A DNA stretch of 64,000 nt from Brachyspira intermedia PWS/A (GTDB lineage Bacteria > Spirochaetota > Brachyspiria > Brachyspirales > Brachyspiraceae): assembly GCF_000223215.1 (NCBI RefSeq), contig NC_017243.1, forward strand, positions 310,001 through 374,000, read 5' to 3'. The first letter of the stretch is position 1, and every line of letters begins with the position of its first letter. This document shows positions 29,645 to 42,675 of this stretch, piece after piece. A model generated the notes under the pieces. That model saw nothing but the letters and a program-made list of their open reading frames with translations. It did no database searches and was not told the origin of the DNA. A program made the position numbers and the translations under genes.

Positions 29645-30085
29645 TATACACCGCACGCAGAATAAAATTTAAAATATAAACTGATTATTATTACAATTTA
29701 AACAATAAATTAAAATGCATTAAACGTGCGTTAATCAGATTTATATATTTAAATACCACTTGGGTGGGTGCTTTAATTTCTAATTGAAGCTTTAAATATA
29801 AAAAATACTAAAATTTAAATTTTAGCTATAAAGAATAAAGGGCGGGGTATGTAATTTAAGTTTTAAAATTTAATTACATTTGCCCACCCTCTAGGTTTAC
29901 AGTTTTTATCTGCAATATAAGATTAGTTTTTTCTTGTTACTTTGATTAGATTTTTTAGCTGCCCACCCAGGATTTTTTTAAATTTATAGTGCATTCACCG
30001 CACGCATAGCAGAACTTTAAATATAGATTAATTGAAAAATAGAATTTTAATTATATATTAATGATTCATTCACCGTGCGTTAATA
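29645..30085. repeat. Palindromic intergenic element, family 1, double half-copies joined tail to tail (copy D)
   Basis: Occupies the divergent gap yebC to the VOC gene. First half: CACCGCACGCA (29650-29660), core, AAACGTGCGTTAA (29722-29734), CACTTGGGTGGGTGC (29757-29771), AAGGGCGGGG (about 29838-29847). Second half: TTTGCCCACCCTCTAG (29879-29894), AGCTGCCCACCCAGG (29957-29971), CACCGCACGCA (29996-30006), core, CACCGTGCGTTAA (30071-30083). The joint is itself palindromic: TATGTAATTTAA facing TTTAATTACAT. Confidence 0.8.
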
Positions 30086-30167
30086 AAATTTAATTTTGTT
30101 CAGTATATTTCATATTATTTGATTTTTTGTTAGAATTATATTGAGAAAATTATTAGGAGTAAATTTT

Positions 30168-30620
30168 ATGTTAAAGGAAGTAATGCATATAGGTATTACT
30201 GTGAGCAATATAGAAAGATCTATTAATTTTTACAGAGATATTTTAGGCTTAACATTAATAGGAGAGGCTTTAATGGAAGGCAAAGAAACAGATGCTCTTT
30301 TTGCTATGAGTAATTGTAAGGTAAAAATTGCTTATCTTAACGGCAGTGATAATATAATAGCTCCTCCTATAGAATTATTGCAATTTGTAAGCCCTGAAAC
30401 TATCAAAGATGAGCCTAAATTAAATAAAATTTCAGCATCAGAAATTTGCTTTAGAGTAGAGAATATAGAAAAAGTATATAAATATTTAATTGATAATAAT
30501 GTGGAATGCCTATCATCACCTCAGGAATTTGATTTTACTTCTTACGGATTTTCAAAAAGCAAAGCATTATATTTCAAAGATCCTGACGGCATTATATTAG
30601 AATTGATGGAAACATTTTAA
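30168..30620 (+). CDS. VOC (glyoxalase-fold) family protein
   Basis: 150 aa from ATG 30168, chosen over TTG 30141 because AGGAG lies 7 bases before it. Two beta-alpha-beta-beta-beta modules: MHIGITVSNIERSINFYRDILGL with metal-ligand His, and KALYFKDPDGIILELME with the terminal Glu. It resembles methylmalonyl-CoA epimerase/lactoylglutathione-lyase relatives. Exact reaction not determinable. Stands alone after repeat D. Confidence 0.8.
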   Translation: MLKEVMHIGITVSNIERSINFYRDILGLTLIGEALMEGKETDALFAMSNCKVKIAYLNGSDNIIAPPIELLQFVSPETIKDEPKLNKISASEICFRVENIEKVYKYLIDNNVECLSSPQEFDFTSYGFSKSKALYFKDPDGIILELMETF

Positions 30621-30786
30621 ATTTTTAATATATATAATGCTATTTGTTTTGTATGATAGGATATACATAAAAAATAAGGTAAATATGAACTATAATATAC
30701 TAAATATATTTTTTATGCCTAATTTAATTATTGAAAAATAAAGTAAATGATTTAAAATATTAATATCAAATTATGGTGTAATTATT

Positions 30787-32054
30787 ATGAAACATCTTTA
30801 TAAATTGGATAATGCAGCTAAACTTTTTGTTTCTATAAAAAATAAAAAAATATACCAATATTCAGAGTGTCAGTTGTACTCAATAATGAAGAAGTCAACC
30901 CTAAGATACTTCAAGAAGCATTAGACATCACAATAAAAAGATTTCCAACACTTTCGCTTATGATAAAGAAAGGATTATTTTGGAATTACTTTGAAGAAAA
31001 TCATAGAAGATTGATCGTAGAGGAAGATAAATATTATCCCTGCTATAATATAAACAGTAAATTAAATAACGGCTATCTTTTGAGAGTAGGCTATTATCAA
31101 TATAGAATTTTTACTGAAGTTTATCACTCTCTCGCTGATGCTACAGCTTTAATAAGTTTTTTAAAATCTTTACTATATCATTATTTTGTTTTGTTAGGAA
31201 AAAATATTGATGATAAAAATGATGATATATTTAAAGACACTGTTCCAATTATAGCAGACTATGATGACAGCTTTTCTGTTCATACAAAGGATAAAATAGA
31301 AACTAAAAAAGAAAAAAAGATAAAGAATGTTTATTTGATTAAAGGAAAGCCTTTAAAATTTTACGGCGATAATGTTGTGCATGGAATGATAAGTTTGAAA
31401 AGCATTAAGGAAGAGAGCAAAAAACATAATACCACAATCACATCTTATATATTATCGGCTTTGGTTTATTCAATTTATGAAACTAGAATAAAAAACAGAC
31501 TTGACGGAAAAAATATAGTGATGTGCGTACCTGTTAATTTGAGAAGTATATTTCCTTCAATATCATTAAAAAATTTTTTCGGCGTTGCTAATATATTGAT
31601 TGGCACAGATAAGGAATTAACTTTTGATGATATTATAATGATTACAAATAGAGAGATGAAAGAAAAAATAAGTAAGGAAAAACTTCAGAATTTTATATAT
31701 GAGAATACGAAATTAGAAAATAATATATTTGCCAAATTTATACCATTAGTTATTAAAAATTTTGTAGTTAATTTAGCATTTGAACTTTTTGAAGATAAAT
31801 TGAAAACTATGACAGTATCGAATTTCGGTAATATATCTTTGCCTGATGATATGAAAGATTATATAAGTCATTTTGAAGCTGTTGTATATCCTACAATAAA
31901 CAGTCCTTTAAATTGCGGCTTATGCAGTTTCGGTGATAAATTATCAATTACATTTAATAGAACGGTAATAGAAACTGATATAATAAAATATTTTTTTAGA
32001 TATATATCTAATATTACAGAAGTGGAAATTTATTCTAATGATTACGGAGTATAA
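30787..32054 (+). pseudogene. WS/DGAT- or alcohol-acetyltransferase-like acyltransferase, frameshifted at an A7 run
   Basis: From ATG 30787 the frame reads KLDNAAKLFVSIKNKK and then runs out of frame after A7 at 30844-30850. One extra A would give NKKNIPIFRVSVVLNNEEV, joining smoothly to the long frame that ends at 32054. The combined product is about 422 aa of the condensation/acyltransferase superfamily: HxxxD-type active site VYHSLADATALISF and a second-domain PVNLRSIFPS...NFFG. Without the shift only a GTG (30867) start with no ribosome site remains. First gene of a three-gene operon with a zinc-ribbon membrane protein and an alpha/beta hydrolase. The break may be slippage, variation or a sequencing error. 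Confidence 0.7.
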
Positions 32055-32059
32055 ATAAA

Positions 32060-32728
32060 ATGGCTTATTGTAATAATTGCAGATTGAAAATTAAAACTAA
32101 TAGAAATATATGTCCTTTATGTTTAAAAGAATTAAATAATAATGATAATGAAATAATAAATGAAGAATATCATTCTTATGAATGGTTTTATAAAATGCAG
32201 AAAAAAATCAATGCTCAGAAAATAGTTTTGCTTTCATCATTAGCAGCAATAATAGCTTTGATAATAGTAAATATTTCAACTAATTCAAAATATAATTGGG
32301 CTGTAATATCTGTTATATCAATATTATGTTCTTATTTTACCTATGTATGTTTTACAGCTGATACTTTATATTTAAGGCAGAAATTACTTATAGAGTTTTT
32401 TATACTTATGCCTCTAGTTATTGTAATAGATATATTCACCGGTTTTTATAAATGGTCATTTAATTATGTTATTCCTTTTTTGTCGCTTGGTTTAAATATT
32501 GCTATGTTTTTAATTGCAGTTATAGATAGAAAATATTTTAATGAATATGTTTCTTATATAATGTCAGCTTCTTTTATATCAATAATAATGATAATTCTTC
32601 CTTTATTTCATTTTGTACTTTGGAGCAGTTTATCGGCTTTGGGAGGAGGTATTATAATTATTTTAGCTATGCTTATATTATTTAGAATAGATTTTGTTTC
32701 ATCTATAATAAAGATTTTTCATATATAA
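32060..32728 (+). CDS. Zinc-ribbon membrane protein (DUF6320-like)
   Basis: 222 aa. N-terminal zinc ribbon YCNNCRLKIKTNRNICPLCLKEL (two CxxC pairs, residues about 4-23) followed by six hydrophobic helices. It lies 5 bases after the acyltransferase-like gene and 22 bases before the hydrolase. DUF6320-type proteins commonly accompany such acyltransferases and hydrolases; I base the name on that context and architecture. Function unknown; perhaps a membrane partner in lipid/ester modification. Confidence 0.6.
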   Translation: MAYCNNCRLKIKTNRNICPLCLKELNNNDNEIINEEYHSYEWFYKMQKKINAQKIVLLSSLAAIIALIIVNISTNSKYNWAVISVISILCSYFTYVCFTADTLYLRQKLLIEFFILMPLVIVIDIFTGFYKWSFNYVIPFLSLGLNIAMFLIAVIDRKYFNEYVSYIMSASFISIIMIILPLFHFVLWSSLSALGGGIIIILAMLILFRIDFVSSIIKIFHI

Positions 32729-32750
32729 TTTATAAATAAGGAGTATTTTT

Positions 32751-33729
32751 ATGGAAGATAATAAAAAAGAAGAAAGAGAGCAAATAAGAAAAGAAAAAGA
32801 ACAGAGGAAACTAGAAGAAAAAAAAGACTAAATTGGAAAGAAAACAGAAAAAAATAGAGGAAAAGATAAGAAGAAAAAATTTACTTGGAGAGTATCTTAC
32901 TTATCCAAGTATGGCTGTTAATTTTATAAAAGCTGATAAGAAAATAAAGCCTGAAAAGTATACATTCGATAAAAATAAGGCTCAATATATATTATATTTT
33001 GCTCCTCAATTAAAAGAAAATGAAAGTCCAAAGAAACAGGTTATAGTTTATTTATACGGCGGAGGCTGGAGAGAGGGTAATGCTAATTTATACAGATTCG
33101 TTGGAAGAAGATTTGCAAAAGAGAAATTCCATACTATTTTATTAGGATACAGACTAAGTAAAAAATATAAATACCCAGCTCAAATAGAAGATGTATTTGC
33201 AGGATTTAATAAGGCACTAGAAGTTTTGAAAAATAAAAATATTGATTATTCTGATATTATAGTGATAGGTTCATCTGCCGGTGCTCATTTGGGAGCTTTG
33301 CTTGTATATTATAAAGAAATGCATAAAAAATATAATGTAGATTCTAATATTTTTAAAGGATATGTATCGCTTGGAGGGCCAACGGATTTAAATGTATGTA
33401 CTAATGATATAATAACTCCTATGCTTGATCAATTATTTGAAGAGGGCTACAATAGGGAAGAGGCTAATCCTTATAATCATATAGACGGAAGCGAGAGAAC
33501 AAAAGTATTATGCGTTCACTCGGAATTGGATCCTATTTGCGATGTTGATAATTCTATTAATTTTTCTAATAAAGTTAATAGCTTTCATGATGGCTTAGCT
33601 GATTGTATTATATTTGATAATAAAAATATTTATCATAATAATTTAGTTAATGGTATATTCTTTGAGGCTATGGACAGCGAACATATATTAGATAAAGTAT
33701 TCAAATGGATTGAAAAAATTGATAATTAA
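32751..33729 (+). pseudogene. Alpha/beta hydrolase, frameshifted near the 5' end at an A8 run
   Basis: A strong AAGGAG precedes ATG 32751, which opens a Lys/Glu-rich coiled segment that stops after 26 codons. Removing one A from the A8 run at 32818-32825 gives EEKKTKLERKQKKIEEK and joins the frame of the 298-residue hydrolase (from TTG 32833). The hydrolase has VYLYGGGWREG (oxyanion motif), VIGSSAGAHLG (nucleophile Ser), then Asp in SELDPICD and His in DSEHILDK: a complete catalytic triad of the HSL/BD-FAE type. The catalytic domain may still be made from the TTG. It is the second frameshifted gene in this operon. Confidence 0.7.
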
Positions 33730-33774
33730 AAAATTGCACTTTTGCTTAAATTAAGTAATTTTATTTAAATAAAA

Positions 33775-33802
33775 AGCTGATATCTTATATAAGTTATCAG
33801 CT
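33775..33802. terminator. Bidirectional terminator between hydrolase and metX
   Basis: Perfect 8-bp stem AGCTGATA (33775-33782) with TATCAGCT (33795-33802), A-rich before and T-rich after, between convergent genes. Confidence 0.75.
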
Positions 33803-33811
33803 TTTATTATT

Positions 33812-34915
33812 TTAATTATTTAAGAAATTTTTTATATATCTAGTCTGTTCTGTATTTTTTAGCAAAAAGGCATCATGTCCATAATTTGATGCTATTTCAT
33901 GAAATGTTGTATCTATATTAGAATGCTGATAAGCTGCAACTATTTCAGCAGACTGCGTACTTGGATAAAGCCAATCCGATATAAAAGATATAATTAGAGT
34001 TTTTTTCAAATTAATATTTTTTTTATGTTTTATTTTTTTTATTTCATCTTTAACATCAAAAAAATCCATAGCTTTAGTGAGATATAAAAAACTATTTGCA
34101 TCGAATCTTGCTGTAAATTTTTCTCCGTTATAATGCAGATAATTTTCTACTTCAAAAGAAGGAGTAAAATATTTAACAGCTGTTTTTCTCTTTCTTCCGA
34201 ATTTCTTTCTCATATACTCTTCGCTCATGTATGTGATATGTCCAAGCATTCTAGCTAAAGCAAGTCCTCTGTCAGGAGATGACATGCCATAATATTTTCC
34301 GCCGTACCATTCAGTATCTTCTGTTATTGCCTGTCTTGCTATTTCATTCAAAGCTATCTGCATAGGAGAATGGCTCATAGAACTAGCTATTACTATTGCT
34401 TTTTCCATCATTTGAGGATAAGTGGCTGTCCATTGTAATACCTGCATGCCTCCCATAGAACCGCCGGCCACACAATAAAGTTTATTTATTCCTAAGCTAT
34501 CAATTAATATTTTTTGAACTTTTACTATATCTTTAATTGTGAAAGTTGGGAAGTCTGTACCATAATATGAATTACTATTTGGTTTTTTGGAAGAAGGTCC
34601 TGTTGTTCCGCTGCATCCTCCTAAAACATTTGAGCATATTACAAAATATTTATCTGTATCTATAGCCTTTTTCTTTCCAACAAAATTATCCCACCAAGTA
34701 ATAACATCAGCATCTCCTGTAAAGGCATGGCATACTAAAATAGCATTATCTTTATTTACATTTAAATGTCCGTTTACAGTATATGCTATAGTTAATTCAT
34801 TTATTGAAGCTCCGTTTTCAAATTTGAAAGGCTTATCATAATTAAAATATTTAACTTCTGTTTTTCCTTGTTCATTATTTTCTTTTTCTTTTTTATTTTT
34901 TATAATATTCTTCAT
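33812..34915 (-). CDS. metX: Homoserine O-acetyltransferase
   Basis: 367 aa, alpha/beta hydrolase fold. NAILVCHAFTGDAD, the nucleophile elbow AGGSMGGMQVLQW (Ser about residue 153), SDWLYP (Asp) and NYGHDAFL (His) match MetX. The product acetylhomoserine is used by the MetY encoded 47 bases upstream on the same strand. The N-terminus carries ~20 extra Lys/Glu/Asn residues. Expected to share the leader-controlled transcript described at 36.3-36.5 kb. Confidence 0.93.
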   Translation of the reverse strand: MKNIIKNKKEKENNEQGKTEVKYFNYDKPFKFENGASINELTIAYTVNGHLNVNKDNAILVCHAFTGDADVITWWDNFVGKKKAIDTDKYFVICSNVLGGCSGTTGPSSKKPNSNSYYGTDFPTFTIKDIVKVQKILIDSLGINKLYCVAGGSMGGMQVLQWTATYPQMMEKAIVIASSMSHSPMQIALNEIARQAITEDTEWYGGKYYGMSSPDRGLALARMLGHITYMSEEYMRKKFGRKRKTAVKYFTPSFEVENYLHYNGEKFTARFDANSFLYLTKAMDFFDVKDEIKKIKHKKNINLKKTLIISFISDWLYPSTQSAEIVAAYQHSNIDTTFHEIASNYGHDAFLLKNTEQTRYIKNFLNN

Positions 34916-34962
34916 AAAATAATCCTCTTATTAAAACAGGAGTAATTATTAATACCCCTGAA

Positions 34963-36258
34963 TTATTTATTTGCTATAGTTAAAGCTTCATCTAAATAAT
35001 AAAGTATATCATCAATATGTTCTATACCTATTGAAAGCCTTATGAAGTTTTTGCTTATTCCTCCCTTTTTCAATTCTTCTTCAGATAATTGTGAATGAGT
35101 AGTGGAAGCAGGATGTGCAACTAAACTCTTAACATCTCCTACATTCACCAAATGAGAGAATAATTTTATATTGTCTATAAATTTAACTGCAGCTTCATAT
35201 CCGCCTTTTATACCGAATACAACCATTCCGCCGAATTTATCTTTTAAATATTTGCTTGCTGTAGCATAAGACGGATCATTTTTAAGTCCCGGATATCTTA
35301 CCCATTCAACTCTATCATCTTTTTCTAAAAACTCAGCAACTTTTAAAGCATTAGAGCAATGTCTGTCCATTCTCACTGCCAAAGACTCTGTTCCCTGAAT
35401 GAATATCCAAGAGTTATCAGGAGAAAGACAAGCACCCAAATTTCTAAGAGGTACAGTTCTTACTCTCAAAGTAAATGCTATATTTTTAAGTTCATCAGGC
35501 AAATCATAAGCCCATCTTAATCCATGATAATTTGCATCCGGTTTTGAAAATAGAGGGAATTTATCACTTTGCCAATTAAAGTTACCGCTGTCTGTGATTA
35601 TTCCTCCTACAGCACTTCCATGTCCGCCTATCCATTTTGTAAGTGAGTTTATTACAATATCGGCACCATGTTTAATAGTTTGCAAAAGATAAGGAGTTGT
35701 GAAAGTTCCGTCCACTACTAATGGTATTCCAGCATTATGTGCTATTTTAGCAACTGCTTCAATATCTGTAAAATCTAATGAAGGGTTTGAAATTGTTTCT
35801 ATAAATATTAATTTAGTTTTATCTGTTATAGCCTTAGCAAAATTCTCTGGGTCTTTAGCATCTACAAATTTTGTGTTAATTCCAAATTTAGGAAGTATTG
35901 CTCCAAATTGTGAATATGTTCCTCCATACACATTGAATGCAGAAACTATTTCATCTCCAGCCTCACATATAGTGATTATAGTATAAAAAATAGCATTTGT
36001 TCCTGAAGATACTGCAATGGATGCCTTACCGCCTTCCATAGCTGTAATTCTTTTTTCTAATACATCTGCTGTTGGATCTCCTAGTCTTGTATAAATATAC
36101 CCGAGTTCTTTTAAATCAAATAAGTCAGCAGCATGTTTTGAATCTCTAAATAAATATGAAGTAGTTTTGTATACCGGCACTCCTCTGCTTCCGAATGTAT
36201 CATTATAATCCTGTCCTGCATGTGCAGCTAATGTTTCAAATTTCAATTCTCTTGACAT
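34963..36258 (-). CDS. metY: O-acetylhomoserine sulfhydrylase (aminocarboxypropyltransferase)
   Basis: 431 aa, Cys/Met-metabolism PLP enzyme. TLAAHAGQDYNDTFGSRGVPVY start, YTRLGDPTADVLEKRI, SSGTNAIFYTI, and the Schiff-base Lys in INSLTKWIGGHGSAVGG. Makes homocysteine from acetylhomoserine and sulfide, so methionine synthesis here uses direct sulfhydrylation. AAAGGAG lies 8 bases before the ATG. Its 200-base leader holds a Met/Cys-rich peptide and a terminator (see separate entries). Confidence 0.94.
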   Translation of the reverse strand: MSRELKFETLAAHAGQDYNDTFGSRGVPVYKTTSYLFRDSKHAADLFDLKELGYIYTRLGDPTADVLEKRITAMEGGKASIAVSSGTNAIFYTIITICEAGDEIVSAFNVYGGTYSQFGAILPKFGINTKFVDAKDPENFAKAITDKTKLIFIETISNPSLDFTDIEAVAKIAHNAGIPLVVDGTFTTPYLLQTIKHGADIVINSLTKWIGGHGSAVGGIITDSGNFNWQSDKFPLFSKPDANYHGLRWAYDLPDELKNIAFTLRVRTVPLRNLGACLSPDNSWIFIQGTESLAVRMDRHCSNALKVAEFLEKDDRVEWVRYPGLKNDPSYATASKYLKDKFGGMVVFGIKGGYEAAVKFIDNIKLFSHLVNVGDVKSLVAHPASTTHSQLSEEELKKGGISKNFIRLSIGIEHIDDILYYLDEALTIANK

Positions 36259-36295
36259 CTTTAATACTCCTTTATATTAATAGATTAAAATAAAA

Positions 36296-36323
36296 AAAGC
36301 CGCCAAATAACTTTGACGGCTTT
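36296..36323 (-). terminator. Leader terminator (attenuator) upstream of metY
   Basis: On the minus strand a 12-bp stem (36312-36323 with 36296-36307, one G-U) with a 4-base loop is followed by seven T. It lies between the leader peptide stop and the metY start, 38 bases before the coding region, so it would stop transcription before metY. The 5' arm AGCCGTC (36315-36321) is also complementary to GATGGCT at 36357-36363 in the leader peptide codons. Confidence 0.8.
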
Positions 36324-36348
36324 AAAGTACAAAATAAAAAATAAATTA

Positions 36349-36426
36349 TTATTTACAGCCATCATTATTAAACATACACATTTGCATGAGGCAAAACATT
36401 TTGTTCATAACGATGATTGTCTTCAT
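36349..36426 (-). CDS. metYX leader peptide, Met/Cys-rich
   Basis: 25 codons from ATG 36426 to TAA 36349-36351. Met is at codons 1, 7, 10, 14, 16 and 18, Cys at 12, 17 and 24: nine of 25 residues are sulfur amino acids. AGGA lies 10 bases before the ATG, and a consensus promoter starts the message about 36 bases earlier. Codons 22-24 (GATGGCT at 36357-36363) can pair with the 5' arm of the downstream terminator (six Watson-Crick pairs and one G-U). A ribosome halted at the Met codons would leave that sequence free; one reaching the stop codon would cover it. This is the geometry of a trp/his-type attenuator. No protein function beyond regulation is proposed. Confidence 0.75.
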   Translation of the reverse strand: MKTIIVMNKMFCLMQMCMFNNDGCK

Positions 36427-36468
36427 TTACAATATTTCCTAATATATTTATTTAATAATTAACTATAG

Positions 36469-36497
36469 ATTATATATTAATATAAAATTATTGTCAA
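36469..36497 (-). promoter_or_regulatory. Consensus promoter of the metYX leader
   Basis: Minus-strand TTGACA (36492-36497), exactly 17 bases, TATAAT (36469-36474). Predicted start of transcription near 36462, giving a ~204-base untranslated leader before metY. Confidence 0.8.
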
Positions 36498-36529
36498 TAG
36501 TAATTAATTTTATTTTTCTTATATAGTAT

Positions 36530-37080
36530 CGTTACACTTTATAATCTTTTAGATTCTAATTTCATTAAAGAAATATAAGGTTGCAGTATATGCGTTTTCG
36601 CGAAGTGTGCCAATGAAGTCACCTGTAGTGTTCTGTGTGAAAAAGTTGATAGCATATGTGGAAAAATATATAAAATTGATAAAATAAAGTTGTTTATATA
36701 TATTAAAAAATTGAATTATTAATTATCTACTTTTTTGCCGCACAAAAAAGTAGCAAAAAACGCAATTGCTAAAACTTTATATTTTAAGAATATGTATTAA
36801 ATATATGGGTAATACCATTGTTTTAGGTTAAAAATGCAGTTGTTTTGGTTCTTTTATACCAATACCGAAAGGTACCTACTTGGTAAAAGAACTGGGGTTC
36901 GGGGCAAAACCCTGCAGATATTTAAAATTTAAAAAAATTATTTCTGATAAAATATAGTTGTATACATATTAAAAAAATTGAATTATCAATTATCTACTTT
37001 TTTGCCGCACACGCTCTGCGGGCTTCGTCAAAGAACCAAAAAGTGCAAATACTATAACCCCATATAAAAAAGGAGCTTAG
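36530..37080. repeat. Family 2 repeat cluster between metYX and the DUF262 genes
   Basis: The 36427-37144 gap has no gene beyond the met leader. It holds degenerate pieces of the GC-richer repeat family. Two family-2 left terminal repeats in inverted orientation lie at 36676-36703 and 36945-36968. A direct repeat (TTGAATTAT.AATTATCTAC then TTTTTTGCCGCAC) occurs at about 36711-36743 and 36979-37009. A perfect 11-bp hairpin CTACTTTTTTG/CAAAAAAGTAG sits at 36727-36753. GC-rich scraps (GGGGTTCGGGGC, CACGCTCTGCGGGCTTCG) match the other copies. Confidence 0.65.
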
Positions 37081-37144
37081 CTTTTAATTAAGTTAAACTC
37101 CTTTTTGTATTTTATTAATAAATATTAATTTTCTATAATATAAA

Positions 37145-39132
37145 TTAACGTTGTAATGTTATATTGTTGTCTATATTAGTATTGTATTTAATAATATAAG
37201 ATTTTAAATCATCTCTTATTATTAAATAGAAAGGATTTTTTTTCTGTTCATCTTTAAAATCTTTTATTATTTTTTCTAATATATCTTTTATTTCATTATT
37301 TGAATTTTTTTTAATTTCATCAAACAATATTTTAAATAATTGAGCATAATATGGATTAGTTTTATATCTATTTTCTTTATTTTGAAATGATTTATATAAA
37401 TCTTCTTCTTTTTCACATAAAGAAAATTTATGTAATTTATTATGGTTATCCCAGCCATAATATACAGCATGCGATTTAAAATAAGGACTTTTTTCTTTAT
37501 CAAATTTTTCAGCAAAAGTTAATAATGCCCTTATTAAAATATCTCTTGGTATTTCATTAAAACAGGTTTCAAATATATTTTTATACTTACTAAAATTATC
37601 AAAGAAGTGTTCTTTTATATCTTCAACTTTTATAGCTTCTAAATTATTATTAATATTTTCCAAAGAATATTTTATAATATAGTCAATATTTCCTTTCAAA
37701 ATATCATGATTTTCTAATTTCCAAAATAATTCTTGTAATTCATTTCTTTTTGAAATATCATCATTATAAATAGATAAGAACTTAATTTTATTTACTTCGC
37801 TTTCTAATAAATCAAATTTATCTCTTTCCCCATTATAATTTTCATAGTAACTAAGTAATTCTTTTTTATCTTTACATTCAAAAAAATCAAATATATTAGT
37901 ATAAGTATTTTTATTATTGTTTTCTATCTCCATTAAAATATTTGTAATACTTGTACTATTATGATTAAACCTTATATTATATAAAAATCTAAGCCATTGG
38001 AATAAATCTTTTTTTGTATTTTCTTCTATGTTGTTAAAATTCTCTTTGTTCTTAAAATTATCTTCATCTATTTTGAATATATTTTTAACTATATATAAAA
38101 ATGGGATAATTATTGTAGATATATTTAAAATATTAGCATTATTTATGGTTTTATCTTTATTTATAAATTTAGTTAAATATTTAGTATTATCAGTATTTTC
38201 TAATTTTAATAATTCATATAATAATTCTAATGAATAATGATGATAAATTATATCATCTAATTTTAAATAGTTTTTATTTTCAATAATATTTATACTATCA
38301 ACATTCCCAATTGAATTTGACGTATTTCCTTCAATTTCAAATTTTGATAAAGCTATTGCTTGCTTTAAAAATTTATTAAATTCTTCATCAGCATTATTTT
38401 TATTATTATCTCTATGCTTCCAAAAGAAATGCTCTATTTTATTAAATTTTGTTGCTTTATCTTTATAATCTTCTTTTATTTCTGATAATAAAGAAACTCT
38501 AATATCTTCATATTCTGCTATTTTTTCACCTCTTGAGTTCATAGTTATATAAAGTTCTTCGCCTTGAGAAGTATTTGAAGTATTAAAGTACCAAAATTCT
38601 GCTTTTTCAATATCTTTTAAAGAAATATCTTTATATTCTTGATTTTCTTCATCTATATTGAAAATCTTAAAAAAGTTTATAATATTTTTTATTGTAGGGT
38701 CTTTTTTATAAACTGATAAGCACCAAGTTTTATTTTCAATATCAAAAAAATCTTCTTCTTTTTCAATTTTTTCTATCATCAAATCAATAAATTCTTTTGT
38801 TAAATTTCTTACTTTATAAGAGAAGTTTTTTAAATAAGCTTTATATTTATTATTTTCTTTTACAGATAAGTATAGTAATGTTAAATATAAAGTAGTAAAT
38901 CTCTGCTGACCATCTATCAAATAAACTTTATTATCTTTTTCATAAGAATATAAAAAACCGATATTATAATTATTCTCTGTATTCTTTGTATTATCAATAA
39001 TAGCATTTAATAAGTTTTTACAGTTCTCGATATTTTCTGTACTTCCCCATACATATTCTCTTTGTATTTCTGGTACAATAATATTTTCATCTTTTAATAT
39101 ATCTATAAATCTTTTTTTATCAATTCAGCCAT
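37145..39132 (-). pseudogene. DUF262 protein (GmrSD-like), frameshifted at codon 7 in an A7 run
   Basis: AAGGAG and ATG 39132 open the frame MAELIKK, which stops two codons later. One extra A in the A7 run (T7 at 39112-39118) would give KKRFIDILKDENIIVPEIQREYVWG, the proper DUF262 start, running on through LIDGQQRFTTLYLTLLYL to the stop at 37145 (about 662 aa). Otherwise only a TTG at 38920, inside the conserved DGQQR motif, could start it. The DUF262 ParB/sulfiredoxin-like domain is N-terminal. The C-terminal half is helical and Lys/Asn-rich, with no HNH motif that I can see, unlike the next gene. Lies 11 bases after it, so a two-gene unit. Confidence 0.7.
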
Positions 39133-39143
39133 ATTTATACTCC

Positions 39144-41234
39144 TTACTTATTATTATCATCAAAAAACTTTTCTATTTCTTTTCTAATATCTTCAGCTGT
39201 ATTTTTTATATTATCAATAGTCCATTCATTTATATTTTTAGAAAATACAGTCCAAGTATGATTTCTTATATATTTATTTCCGCTTTCATACAGTTCTATT
39301 ATTATCCTTCTTTTTTCAATATAAGAGGAATTTCCGTAACCTCTATTGGTATTTGAGTTTAATAAAACTAAATTGCCTATTGAATGTACATAAGGAACTT
39401 CTCTAATAACTCTTCTATATTCATCTAATAACTCCAAATCTTTGAGTGTTTGTTTATTATTTTCATTATTTAATTTGGGGAGCTTATCTTCAAACTTTTT
39501 TAAATCATTATCTTCCATAAACTTTTTTAAATCATTATCTTCCGTTATTTTTTCTCTTTTATATTCCTCAAGTGAACTAATTATCAAATCAATATTTTCT
39601 TTAGCCTCTTTTATAGTTGTTTCATCATTAGGAGTTTTAGAAAATATATGTTCAATATCTTCTTCATTCCTATTAAAATAATTTACTGGTAATTTGTACT
39701 TTATATCTTTATTATTAAGTATTTTTATTATATCCATAAGTACCAATAATTTTATTGTATTATTTTCTTGGTAATACCAATTTTTATTAGGATCTCCTAT
39801 AGTTTCAAGATAATTTTCATTTTCAATGTTTTTTATTAAATTATTTTTTATAATTTGCTTTAATGCTTTTTTAAAACTTTCTCTTGTAGTATTAGCTCTT
39901 TCCCATATATCCCAAATAATTTTTATATCTTCTATATTTTGCTTTCCAATGAAACCAAGCAAATGATATATTTCTTTATCCTCGTACCAATCTGCCATAG
40001 TATTATGAAATCTTACAACTTCTTTAAATACTACTTCTGCCTTATCTGTATTACTGTCTAAATATTTAAATAATGCTTCATTATTTGATTGTGATTTATA
40101 AGCATCCGATTTTTCATTATTATTATTTGATTCATTATTTCTGCATTTCCAATATAAATCATAAAGCATTGATATATTATTTTCATTAGAAAACATTTTA
40201 AAATATTCTTTTACATTTTCATCTGACCACCATATATTCATATTATCTATATCAATACCTATTTTTATTCTTTTTTCTGCTAAATCTATATCATTTGCTT
40301 CTTTTTCCTTTGATATAAATATAGTTTCAGCTTTGGTATTATTACCATTGTCCAAATAGTTTAGTATTAATTGTGCATTGTTTAATAATGTAGTTGTATG
40401 ACTTTTTTCTTTCACATTTTCATCTGACCACCATATATTCATATTATCTATATCAATATCTATTTTTATTCTTTTTTCTGCTAAATCTATATCGTTTCCT
40501 TTTTTTGCTACTCTTGTTATAAATATAGCTCTTATTAAATCATAATACTCTAAAGCTACTTTATTGGAGTTAAGATTTTTAAATATGGTTTCACCTTTTA
40601 CATCATTACCGCTGCTTACATCATTTACTATTAGTTTTACATTGTTTAATAATTTAGTTGTAAAACTTTTCTTTTTATCTTCATCAAATTTATAAAAAAA
40701 ATTTATTATAGTATGTTTAGCTAGGCAAAAATGAAAAACATCTTGTCTATCATAGTCTTTATTTTCTTTTTTAAGATCTTTTACTGCCTTATCAAATTTA
40801 TCATTATAACTTAGATTATCATTTAAATAGTCATTATTTGTTTCTTTTAATAATTTATATAGAAACTCCTGACTTTCTTTTCTGATAGAGTATTTTATTT
40901 TATATTTATTATTATTATTATTATCTTGTTTTAATAAATCTGTTTTTCCTAAATATGATAATAATATTGACAGAGTAGTTAATCTCTGCTGTCCGTCTAT
41001 AACTTCATAAATATTTTCACTATCTTTTTGTTTTTTTATAGTTATGTTTTGAAGGCAGTAAAATTTATCTCCTTCTGCTTGAAAATTATTAATATCATTT
41101 AATAAAGCATTAACATCTTCTTCACTCCATTTATATCCCCTTTGATATTCTGGAATGTTATAAATGCGTCCATTAGAAAATATTTCTTTTACGCTTTCTA
41201 TTATATCATCATTATTTTTAATTTCTTCTGTCAT
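39144..41234 (-). CDS. DUF262 + DUF1524 protein (GmrSD-type restriction family)
   Basis: 696 aa. N-terminal DUF262 with IPEYQRGYKWSEEDV (about 28-42) and IDGQQRLTTLSILLSYLG (about 79-96). The C-terminal region has an HNH-like DUF1524 pattern: NEEDIEHIFSKTPND (His) and VHSIGNLVLLNSNTNRGYGNSSYIEKR. The pair of domains is typical of GmrSD-type modification-dependent nucleases and related anti-phage proteins. Residues about 250-350 contain an internal duplication (two copies of AEKRIKI.IDIDNMNIWWSDENVKE) and a short EDNDLKKF tandem repeat lies near 595-610. First gene of the pair; flanked upstream by a family-2 repeat. Confidence 0.8.
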   Translation of the reverse strand: MTEEIKNNDDIIESVKEIFSNGRIYNIPEYQRGYKWSEEDVNALLNDINNFQAEGDKFYCLQNITIKKQKDSENIYEVIDGQQRLTTLSILLSYLGKTDLLKQDNNNNNKYKIKYSIRKESQEFLYKLLKETNNDYLNDNLSYNDKFDKAVKDLKKENKDYDRQDVFHFCLAKHTIINFFYKFDEDKKKSFTTKLLNNVKLIVNDVSSGNDVKGETIFKNLNSNKVALEYYDLIRAIFITRVAKKGNDIDLAEKRIKIDIDIDNMNIWWSDENVKEKSHTTTLLNNAQLILNYLDNGNNTKAETIFISKEKEANDIDLAEKRIKIGIDIDNMNIWWSDENVKEYFKMFSNENNISMLYDLYWKCRNNESNNNNEKSDAYKSQSNNEALFKYLDSNTDKAEVVFKEVVRFHNTMADWYEDKEIYHLLGFIGKQNIEDIKIIWDIWERANTTRESFKKALKQIIKNNLIKNIENENYLETIGDPNKNWYYQENNTIKLLVLMDIIKILNNKDIKYKLPVNYFNRNEEDIEHIFSKTPNDETTIKEAKENIDLIISSLEEYKREKITEDNDLKKFMEDNDLKKFEDKLPKLNNENNKQTLKDLELLDEYRRVIREVPYVHSIGNLVLLNSNTNRGYGNSSYIEKRRIIIELYESGNKYIRNHTWTVFSKNINEWTIDNIKNTAEDIRKEIEKFFDDNNK

Positions 41235-41310
41235 ATAATAATCCTTAAACTAAATATATACTATATAGTATAACACATTTTCATGACAAAAACTGTCATA
41301 AAATTTGATT

Positions 41311-41704
41311 TATATATAAACAACTATATTTTGTCAGAAATAATTTTTTTAATTTTTAAATATCTGCATGAATTTGCCCGCACCACATTTATTTTGCGAC
41401 CAAAGGAAGTACTGCGACTGAAAGGAGTACCTAACGAAGTCCACTGTAAGTGTAGGTATGGTATTGCCACAGGTGAAGCCCGCCTGCGGCGAGAAGCTTA
41501 TATCCTCGACAGGCTCGGATACGCTTCACGAAAGGCTATATTTGACTAAGTCCACCTTTAGGTGTGCTTAAATTAATAATCTATCTTACATGTAAGACTA
41601 TTTTAGTATAATTTAGTACTAATTTATCCTTGCACTTTTTGGTTCTTTTTGCGGCGTGAAAAAGAACAATAAAAAATGATAAACTTAAAAATTTTCAGTA
41701 TATA
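41311..41704. mobile_element. Family 2 GC-rich element with terminal inverted repeats
   Basis: Left terminus TATATATAAACAACTATA...TTTGTCA (41311-41338) and right terminus TGATAAACTTAAAAATTTTC...TATATA (41677-41704) are imperfect inverted repeats, closely matching those at 50.3-50.7 kb. Inside is a GC-rich stretch (41376-41560) with GCGACCAAAGGAAGTACTGC, CACAGGTGAAGCCCGCC and an inverted copy of the CGAGC.TGTCGAGGATAT module. No gene: the frame through it is not protein-like. The rest of the gap 41235-41742 is AT-rich. Confidence 0.65.
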
Positions 41705-41742
41705 TAATAATAGATAAATATTTATGATAAAAAATTAAATAA

Positions 41743-42675
41743 TTATCTGTTTTCGCTTCTGAATTTGGCGGGGTCTGTGAATGGGCGTCTGCCTTGAAAT
41801 TTCGATAAATAAACTATATTGCTTGCTATATTTACAAACCCGTTATCTCCGTATTTCATTATAGTTTCTTTGGCTTGCTTGTCTTTCATCATAGGATATG
41901 CTAATGGTATATCATCTATAAATAAATGACATAGTATACGTCCGAAAGCATCATAAGAGCCTACGAGCATACTGACATTTGAAGCATTTTTAATTTTGTT
42001 TTCAACATAGGCTTTAACATTGGTGCCATAGTTCTGCTTTAATTCCGGGGCATCGAGTCCTATGAATCTGTAATAATTATCTTTGTATTTTATAGTGTCT
42101 CCGTCTACCACTCTTATATGGTCTTTGTCTAAATCTGCTAAATATTTTGATAGCTCTTTATTATAGTTGGAATCTATATTATAAAAATCTTTATTTGTAA
42201 ATGAGAGAAAAAGTTTTGTATTGTAAGAATCTTTTAGAGTTAAATATTCATCGCTGTTTATATCGTTAATATCCAAAACTACATGGCTATAATGAATTTT
42301 AAAAAATCTAAGTTTATCAATCAGCTTATCATCGCTAGCATAAAACATAATTTTGTCTTTAAAAAATAAAGTATAAAAAATTAGTTTGAATCTGCCTATA
42401 AATTTTATGCTTGGAAAATGAGTTTCTATATATTTTTTGTCATCATCATTTTCAGCATACAATACATAAACTTTATCTCTGTTTTTTATATAATCATGAA
42501 TAATGCTTGTCTTATTATTTTCTAGCATGCTTATTATTGATTTTGAGTCAATAATTAAATCTTTGCTTTCTTTAAGATTAGAAGTTTTTATAATAAAAAT
42601 AAAAGCAAATATTATTATGATAGTATAAATACAAGTTTTTATAATCTTTTCATTTTTTTGATTAGAAGTTCGCAT
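41743..42675 (-). CDS. Membrane-anchored thermonuclease-family (SNase-like) protein
   Basis: 310 aa. N-terminal anchor (residues about 14-30), a ~150-residue unrecognised middle, then a staphylococcal-nuclease domain (about 185-290): VVDGDTIKY (metal Asp), RFIGLDAPELKQNYG (catalytic Arg and Asp) and DAFGRILCHLFID (second catalytic Arg). Key active-site residues are present. Likely an exported, tethered nuclease for nucleotide scavenging or DNA degradation. Its start lies 37 bases inside the 3' end of thiE, so it is translationally linked to it. Confidence 0.8.
   Translation of the reverse strand: MRTSNQKNEKIIKTCIYTIIIIFAFIFIIKTSNLKESKDLIIDSKSIISMLENNKTSIIHDYIKNRDKVYVLYAENDDDKKYIETHFPSIKFIGRFKLIFYTLFFKDKIMFYASDDKLIDKLRFFKIHYSHVVLDINDINSDEYLTLKDSYNTKLFLSFTNKDFYNIDSNYNKELSKYLADLDKDHIRVVDGDTIKYKDNYYRFIGLDAPELKQNYGTNVKAYVENKIKNASNVSMLVGSYDAFGRILCHLFIDDIPLAYPMMKDKQAKETIMKYGDNGFVNIASNIVYLSKFQGRRPFTDPAKFRSENR

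Follow-up and report, generated by a model that had tools for sequence, protein, structure and literature searches.

Leader-peptide attenuation is a textbook mechanism of bacterial gene control. The enterobacterial trp, his and leu attenuators are characterized by a short frame with control codons, a set of three helices, namely the protector (segments 1:2), the antiterminator (2:3) and the terminator (3:4), a stop codon that adjoins segment 2 and a biosynthetic operon downstream. The control of methionine genes in bacteria is usually told as one of SAM riboswitches, T-boxes and repressors.

The closest described leaders at genes for sulfur amino acids are: the leader MetL before metBA of Campylobacter jejuni, for which attenuation was proposed in 2013 (PMC3847290) and translation was seen by ribosome profiling in 2025, in a study that also names a Met-rich candidate ahead of a gene for D-methionine transport (PMC11955535); the candidate metL leader before metNIQ in Streptomyces lividans (PMC8079986); and the cysteine-run leader peptides before the cys operons of Actinobacteria (PMC1262725). 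Here we describe a leader ahead of metY and metX in Brachyspira intermedia PWS/A that we take, with a probability of about 0.88, to be a ribosome-mediated transcription attenuator that would couple metYX to the supply of charged Met-tRNA, and possibly also of charged Cys-tRNA.

The leader and the metY-metX genes

The elements of this system lie on the minus strand of the window, that is, the whole stretch of 64,000 nucleotides that was analysed, in the order promoter, ribosome-binding site, leader frame, terminator, metY and metX. The promoter (36469-36497), TTGACA-17-TATAAT, has 12 of the 12 sigma-70 consensus bases, and its position is kept in the relatives with TTGACA or TTGAAA and TATAAT-like hexamers; promoter-like sites as a class occur at chance level in the region (5 found versus 4.9 expected). 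The ribosome-binding site of the leader frame, AGGAAA (36435-36440), is read directly, and an AGGAA-type sequence precedes the leader ATG in most relatives; it is more distant, with poor spacing, in the L026-L030 clade. The leader frame itself (36349-36426) has 25 codons and encodes MKTIIVMNKMFCLMQMCMFNNDGCK, with six Met, the start included, and three Cys; each of the 22 genomes that carry a metY orthologue has a homologue of it in frame. Its control codons, Met10, Cys12, Leu13, Met14, Gln15, Met16, Cys17 and Met18, occupy 36373-36399. An intrinsic terminator formed by segments 3 and 4 (36292-36323) sits between this frame and the first gene, metY; it has a 12-bp stem, a GTTA loop and seven T, with the T-run extending to 36292, and is the sole terminator found, shuffled sequences yielding 0.1 +/- 0.4. 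The promoter, the Met/Cys frame and the terminator (then placed at 36296-36323) had all been proposed in an initial, sequence-only reading and withstood the analysis; the leader RNA of ~140 nt proposed with them did not, as the terminated RNA would start near 36462, end near 36292 and thus measure about 170 nt.

The first gene of the operon, metY (34963-36258, minus strand), is assigned at the subfamily level as an O-acetylhomoserine sulfhydrylase by the curated model TIGR01326 (603 bits, above the cut-off), with a further match to PF01053. Next downstream on the same strand is metX (33812-34915), a homoserine O-acetyltransferase (NF001209, 443 bits, above the cut-off). The predicted products of the two genes would lead to homocysteine and methionine by direct sulfhydrylation, and the control codons specify the same amino acid that the operon serves to make. 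Upstream of metY, a frame at 37145-38920 on the minus strand contains the N-terminal domain of GmrSD-type restriction enzymes (PF03235); its listed start is a TTG within the domain, so that either the true start is in doubt or the gene has been truncated.

Other control elements were looked for in the same genomes. Neither SAM-I riboswitches (RF00162) nor T-boxes (RF00230) were found in any of the 26 Brachyspira genomes, with matches in the control genomes, in keeping with the first reading, which had seen neither; around the site (30000-42000 of the window) no Rfam family was matched at E values up to 5. No leucine leader was seen before leuA in Brachyspira. The regions upstream of leuA in L285 and L287 hold G+C-rich, dispersed, repeat-like stretches (..GGTGGACTTCGTCGGCACGC..) amid the A+T-rich Brachyspira DNA; repeats of this type were not found in the window.

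Three helices and the position of the ribosome

Segment 1 (36402-36420, minus strand), which spans leader codons 3-9, and segment 2 (36355-36374) are the 5' and 3' arms of a protector helix with a duplex energy of -16.1 kcal/mol. A part of segment 2, TGATGGCTG (36364-36356), is also the 5' arm of the antiterminator, the 3' arm of which, segment 3 (AGCCGTCA, 36314-36321), doubles as the 5' arm of the terminator and is invariant across an alignment of 20 leaders. Each of the 22 leaders has all three helices, the 2:3 duplex energies ranging from -11.9 to -16.4 kcal/mol, and together they complete the architecture of a trp-type attenuator. The sequence-only reading had already arrived at an attenuator: its frame, its terminator and its GATGGCT/AGCCGTC pairing, which is the 2:3 helix as originally described, were borne out, but the third helix, the protector 1:2, had escaped it.

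The strength of the 1:2 pairing was compared with that of synonymous recodings (500 per leader, identical leaders being tested once). None of the 500 recodings of the window's leader pairs as strongly, and in most leaders of its clade the helix is better than 499-500 of 500; the result holds, or nearly so, in L010, L014, L015, L018, L024 and L025, and is weaker in L019-L021. L022, L023 and the L026-L030 clade show no such advantage over synonymous recoding; for them codon-order shuffling is the better contrast. The L026-L030 leaders have their 1:2 arms in a different register (ATGCAG with CTGCAT), and their segment 2 pairs at -2 to -6 kcal/mol with the window's segment 1 versus -10 to -14 kcal/mol with their own. 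Compensatory changes, which the sequence-only reading had named as potential support for the pairing, are few: complementarity is retained, but base changes, and with them two-sided covariation, are scarce. Hence, the case for the helices is built on the codon recoding, this comparison between clades and the decay of a pseudogene locus considered below.

The alternative structures, which had been proposed for folding from the outset, were modelled by ribosome state in seven representative leaders, and the expected structure was obtained for each state. In the absence of a ribosome the leader adopts 1:2 and 3:4, the outer portion of 1:2 being refolded in L025. A ribosome with its A site at Met14 or Met16 lets 2:3 form as long as segment 4 has not been transcribed, and one at the stop codon leaves 3:4 as the sole possibility. 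In these representatives 14-24 bases separate the control codons from the antiterminator arm downstream, and the end of the stop codon falls 5-10 bases beyond that arm. Once segment 4 is present, stability favours the terminator over the antiterminator in all seven modelled leaders; hence, read-through would have to be kinetic. Antitermination in the trp attenuator is likewise kinetic.

These states suggest the following sequence of events: with plentiful Met-tRNA, the ribosome would reach the stop codon and cover segment 2, upon which the 3:4 terminator would form; with Met (or Cys) tRNA in short supply, the ribosome would wait at codons 10-18 and prevent 1:2, so that segment 2 could pair with segment 3 while segment 4 is still to be transcribed, and the polymerase would read into metYX; without translation, 1:2 would form and the terminator would follow. 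The invariant control codons sit in the loop of 1:2, outside segment 1, where a ribosome should hold the two arms apart. The RNA of codons 11-16 also folds on itself as a short hairpin, TTTGY-CTYAT-GCAAA, and the nucleotide conservation of these codons is therefore not purely a codon signal. Within this stretch, leader codon 13 (36390-36388) is the Leu codon CTC in 20 of the 22 leaders and CTT in two, CTC being rare (2 of 189 Leu codons across five metY genes); the rare codon may delay the ribosome or have a role in the small hairpin.

Conservation and decay within Brachyspira

A search of 26 Brachyspira genomes recovered metY orthologues with 84-100% identity in 22; the other four have a distant metY of 43-44% identity (G001 and G003), a wrecked copy (G017) or none (G019). 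The comparison across the genus, which had been suggested as a check on the first reading, found the frame, the control codons, the pairing and the terminator at all 22 orthologue loci, and this recurrence marks the arrangement as more than chance. The leader core occurs once per genome ahead of metY. Some genomes have further matches to the core pattern, and at the three loci checked (L195, L189 and L211) these are covered by a long frame. A regulon sharing the leader in Brachyspira was rejected, as the checked off-site matches lie inside long frames, and the leader is taken to be a single-copy element before metY.

The leader peptides vary at both ends (for instance MKTIIVMNKMFCLMQMCMFNNDGCK, MKSLIVINKMFCLMQMRLFIMMAV and MNNAVIMNMLCLMQMQKIITAA), and indels ahead of the core come in multiples of three. 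Conservation of the Met codons, set as a check in the sequence-only reading, is observed for Met14, which is invariant, but not for Met7, Met10, Met16 and Met18, which vary; every leader nonetheless has two to five internal Met codons ahead of segment 2. Cys17 is often replaced by Arg or His. The only invariant core across the 22 leaders is Cys12-Leu13-Met14-Gln15, the changes in these four codons all being synonymous and in the third position, and hence it is possible that Cys is sensed too. One leader, that of G016, has lost two codons after the core and is present though it does not match the core pattern. In the L022-L024 clade one base has been deleted downstream of the control codons, which turns the peptide end NNDGC into IMMAV; the RNA arm ATGATGGCTGT is unchanged, and the new stop falls within a few bases of it. 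This is what selection on the codons upstream and on the RNA arm downstream would leave.

Strong nucleotide conservation coupled to a terminator would also be expected of a ligand-binding RNA, an unknown riboswitch with a frame present by coincidence. We consider this highly improbable given the in-frame start, the conserved amino acids, the restriction of changes in codons 12-15 to synonymous ones and the pre-core length changes in multiples of three; no Rfam family is matched, and pairing and coding account for the conserved parts. Alternatively, the nascent Cys-Leu-Met-Gln(-Met) peptide might itself stall the ribosome on a small molecule, such as methionine or S-adenosylmethionine, rather than on uncharged tRNA. 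Such an arrest peptide would suit a core that alone is invariant while the other Met codons come and go, and a Leu codon class, CTY, that is kept though CTC is rare (2/189). However, the residues upstream of the core are variable, and the leaders of other bacterial groups have Met/Cys runs with no common peptide, which fits codon supply better; we regard arrest as distinctly unlikely and prefer attenuation by waiting at the control codons.

The loss of metY provides a natural test of the leader. The metY of G017 is a pseudogene, and its leader frame is still recognisable, MKAIIIMNRMQMPMLNK, with the CLM core lost; segment 2 reads GATAACTA in place of GATGGCTG, and segment 3 reads ATCCATCA in place of AGCCGTCA. 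Neither segment 4 nor its T-run has survived. The core pattern is unmatched in the four genomes with no intact metY orthologue (G001, G003, G017 and G019). Judged from these genomes, leader and metY are kept and lost together in Brachyspira. Upstream of the distant metY of G003 and G001 lies a different frame (about 340-440 of L031, and correspondingly in L032) ending in MMMRVCAR or MMMRVVAR. This end folds into a GCGCG..CGCGC hairpin, a terminator is not evident, and the frame is absent from the rest of the genus; it is possibly a second kind of Met leader.

Met/Cys leaders in other bacteria and known attenuators

None of 67 metY upstream loci of other Spirochaetota has a leader of this kind. 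Met/Cys-rich leaders followed by a terminator were found in two of 79 named metY relatives, drawn from many phyla: L114, from a Chlorobiota genome, with two leaders in tandem, and L042, from a Smithellaceae genome. By a uniform rule, a short frame with at least five Met or Cys in eight residues, and with group assignments inferred via L114 (Chlorobiota) and L042 (Smithellaceae), Met/Cys-run frames occur in: 12 of 28 metY upstream regions from the class of L114 (reverse-strand control, 1); 21 of 83 further regions from its phylum (control, 0); and 9 of 26 regions from the order of L042 (control, 0). Examples are ..VMMPMCMMMCCCCAKS.. (L324), ..PMMCCCMEMRNSWKWGDSFM (L252) and ..MMMCCCMPINR.. (L229), the last with a second leader upstream. 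The leader end pairs with the 5' arm of the terminator far above shuffles in several members of the Smithellaceae order (0-6 of 300 shuffles as good in L255, L261, L262, L270, L271 and L275). Tandem Met/Cys-rich frames precede metY in L114 (1159-1450), L229, L233, L236, L237, L367 and L370, and many of these frames have their own terminator.

These leaders have no recognisable sequence in common with that of Brachyspira and are therefore read as independent of it; metY apparently has several Met/Cys leaders of separate origin, the Brachyspira one among them. It is quite probable that Met/Cys attenuation of metY is widespread, with independent origins in Brachyspira, on the Chlorobiota/Bacteroidota side, in the Smithellaceae group and in Campylobacter, that it is sometimes tandem, that it senses both sulfur amino acids, and that it was overlooked as the frames are too short for annotation. 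No report of such leaders before metY in the Chlorobiota or Smithellaceae groups was found in the part of the literature covered.

The Cys runs that these leaders hold besides Met raise the question of whether cysteine is the main signal of the same kind of attenuator, with the Met codons secondary. The invariance of Cys12 points the same way, as does the family description of MetY-type enzymes, which also act in cysteine formation. The Brachyspira leaders, however, have one or two Cys codons before the antiterminator arm versus two to five Met, and Cys17 is frequently Arg or His; cysteine is thus unlikely to be the main signal, and we favour charged Met-tRNA in that role. Taken with the unrelated metY leaders elsewhere, the Brachyspira attenuator suggests that tRNA-charging control of direct sulfhydrylation is a recurrent solution. 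Short unannotated frames before metY are worth looking for, and this wider pattern is of more interest than the Brachyspira leader itself.

With the enterobacterial trp, his and leu attenuators the Brachyspira leader shares the frame, the helix set, the position of the stop codon and the biosynthetic operon; unlike them, it has methionine (with cysteine) as the control amino acid, a spirochaete host and invariant control codons in the 1:2 loop rather than within segment 1. As with SAM riboswitches and methionine T-boxes, transcription of methionine genes would be stopped at a leader terminator, but the proposed sensor is a reading frame. The initial description of the leader as unusual and undescribed holds in so far as no report of a methionine attenuator in Brachyspira or any spirochaete was found in the freely accessible part of the literature that was searched, but Met leader peptides had already been proposed in C. 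jejuni and S. lividans. The Brachyspira leader resembles MetL of C. jejuni in its Met codons and in its predicted short RNA, which would stop ahead of the genes for methionine biosynthesis; MetL differs in having 20 codons with 3 Met and in its reported range, which is limited to C. jejuni, C. coli and C. doylei, and the passages on it that were consulted contain no analysis of alternative structures. The metL leader of S. lividans likewise lies at a methionine gene and contains codons for both Met and Cys (..RCMCRRMCAF), but precedes a transport operon, is leaderless and has no typical terminator. The actinobacterial cys leaders similarly carry codons for a sulfur amino acid in a leader peptide, but as Cys runs and with no intrinsic terminator found. 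Thus, the mechanism is a known one, and, as far as the literature was searched, the amino acid and the bacterial group are new for it, the methionine precedents of C. jejuni and S. lividans aside.
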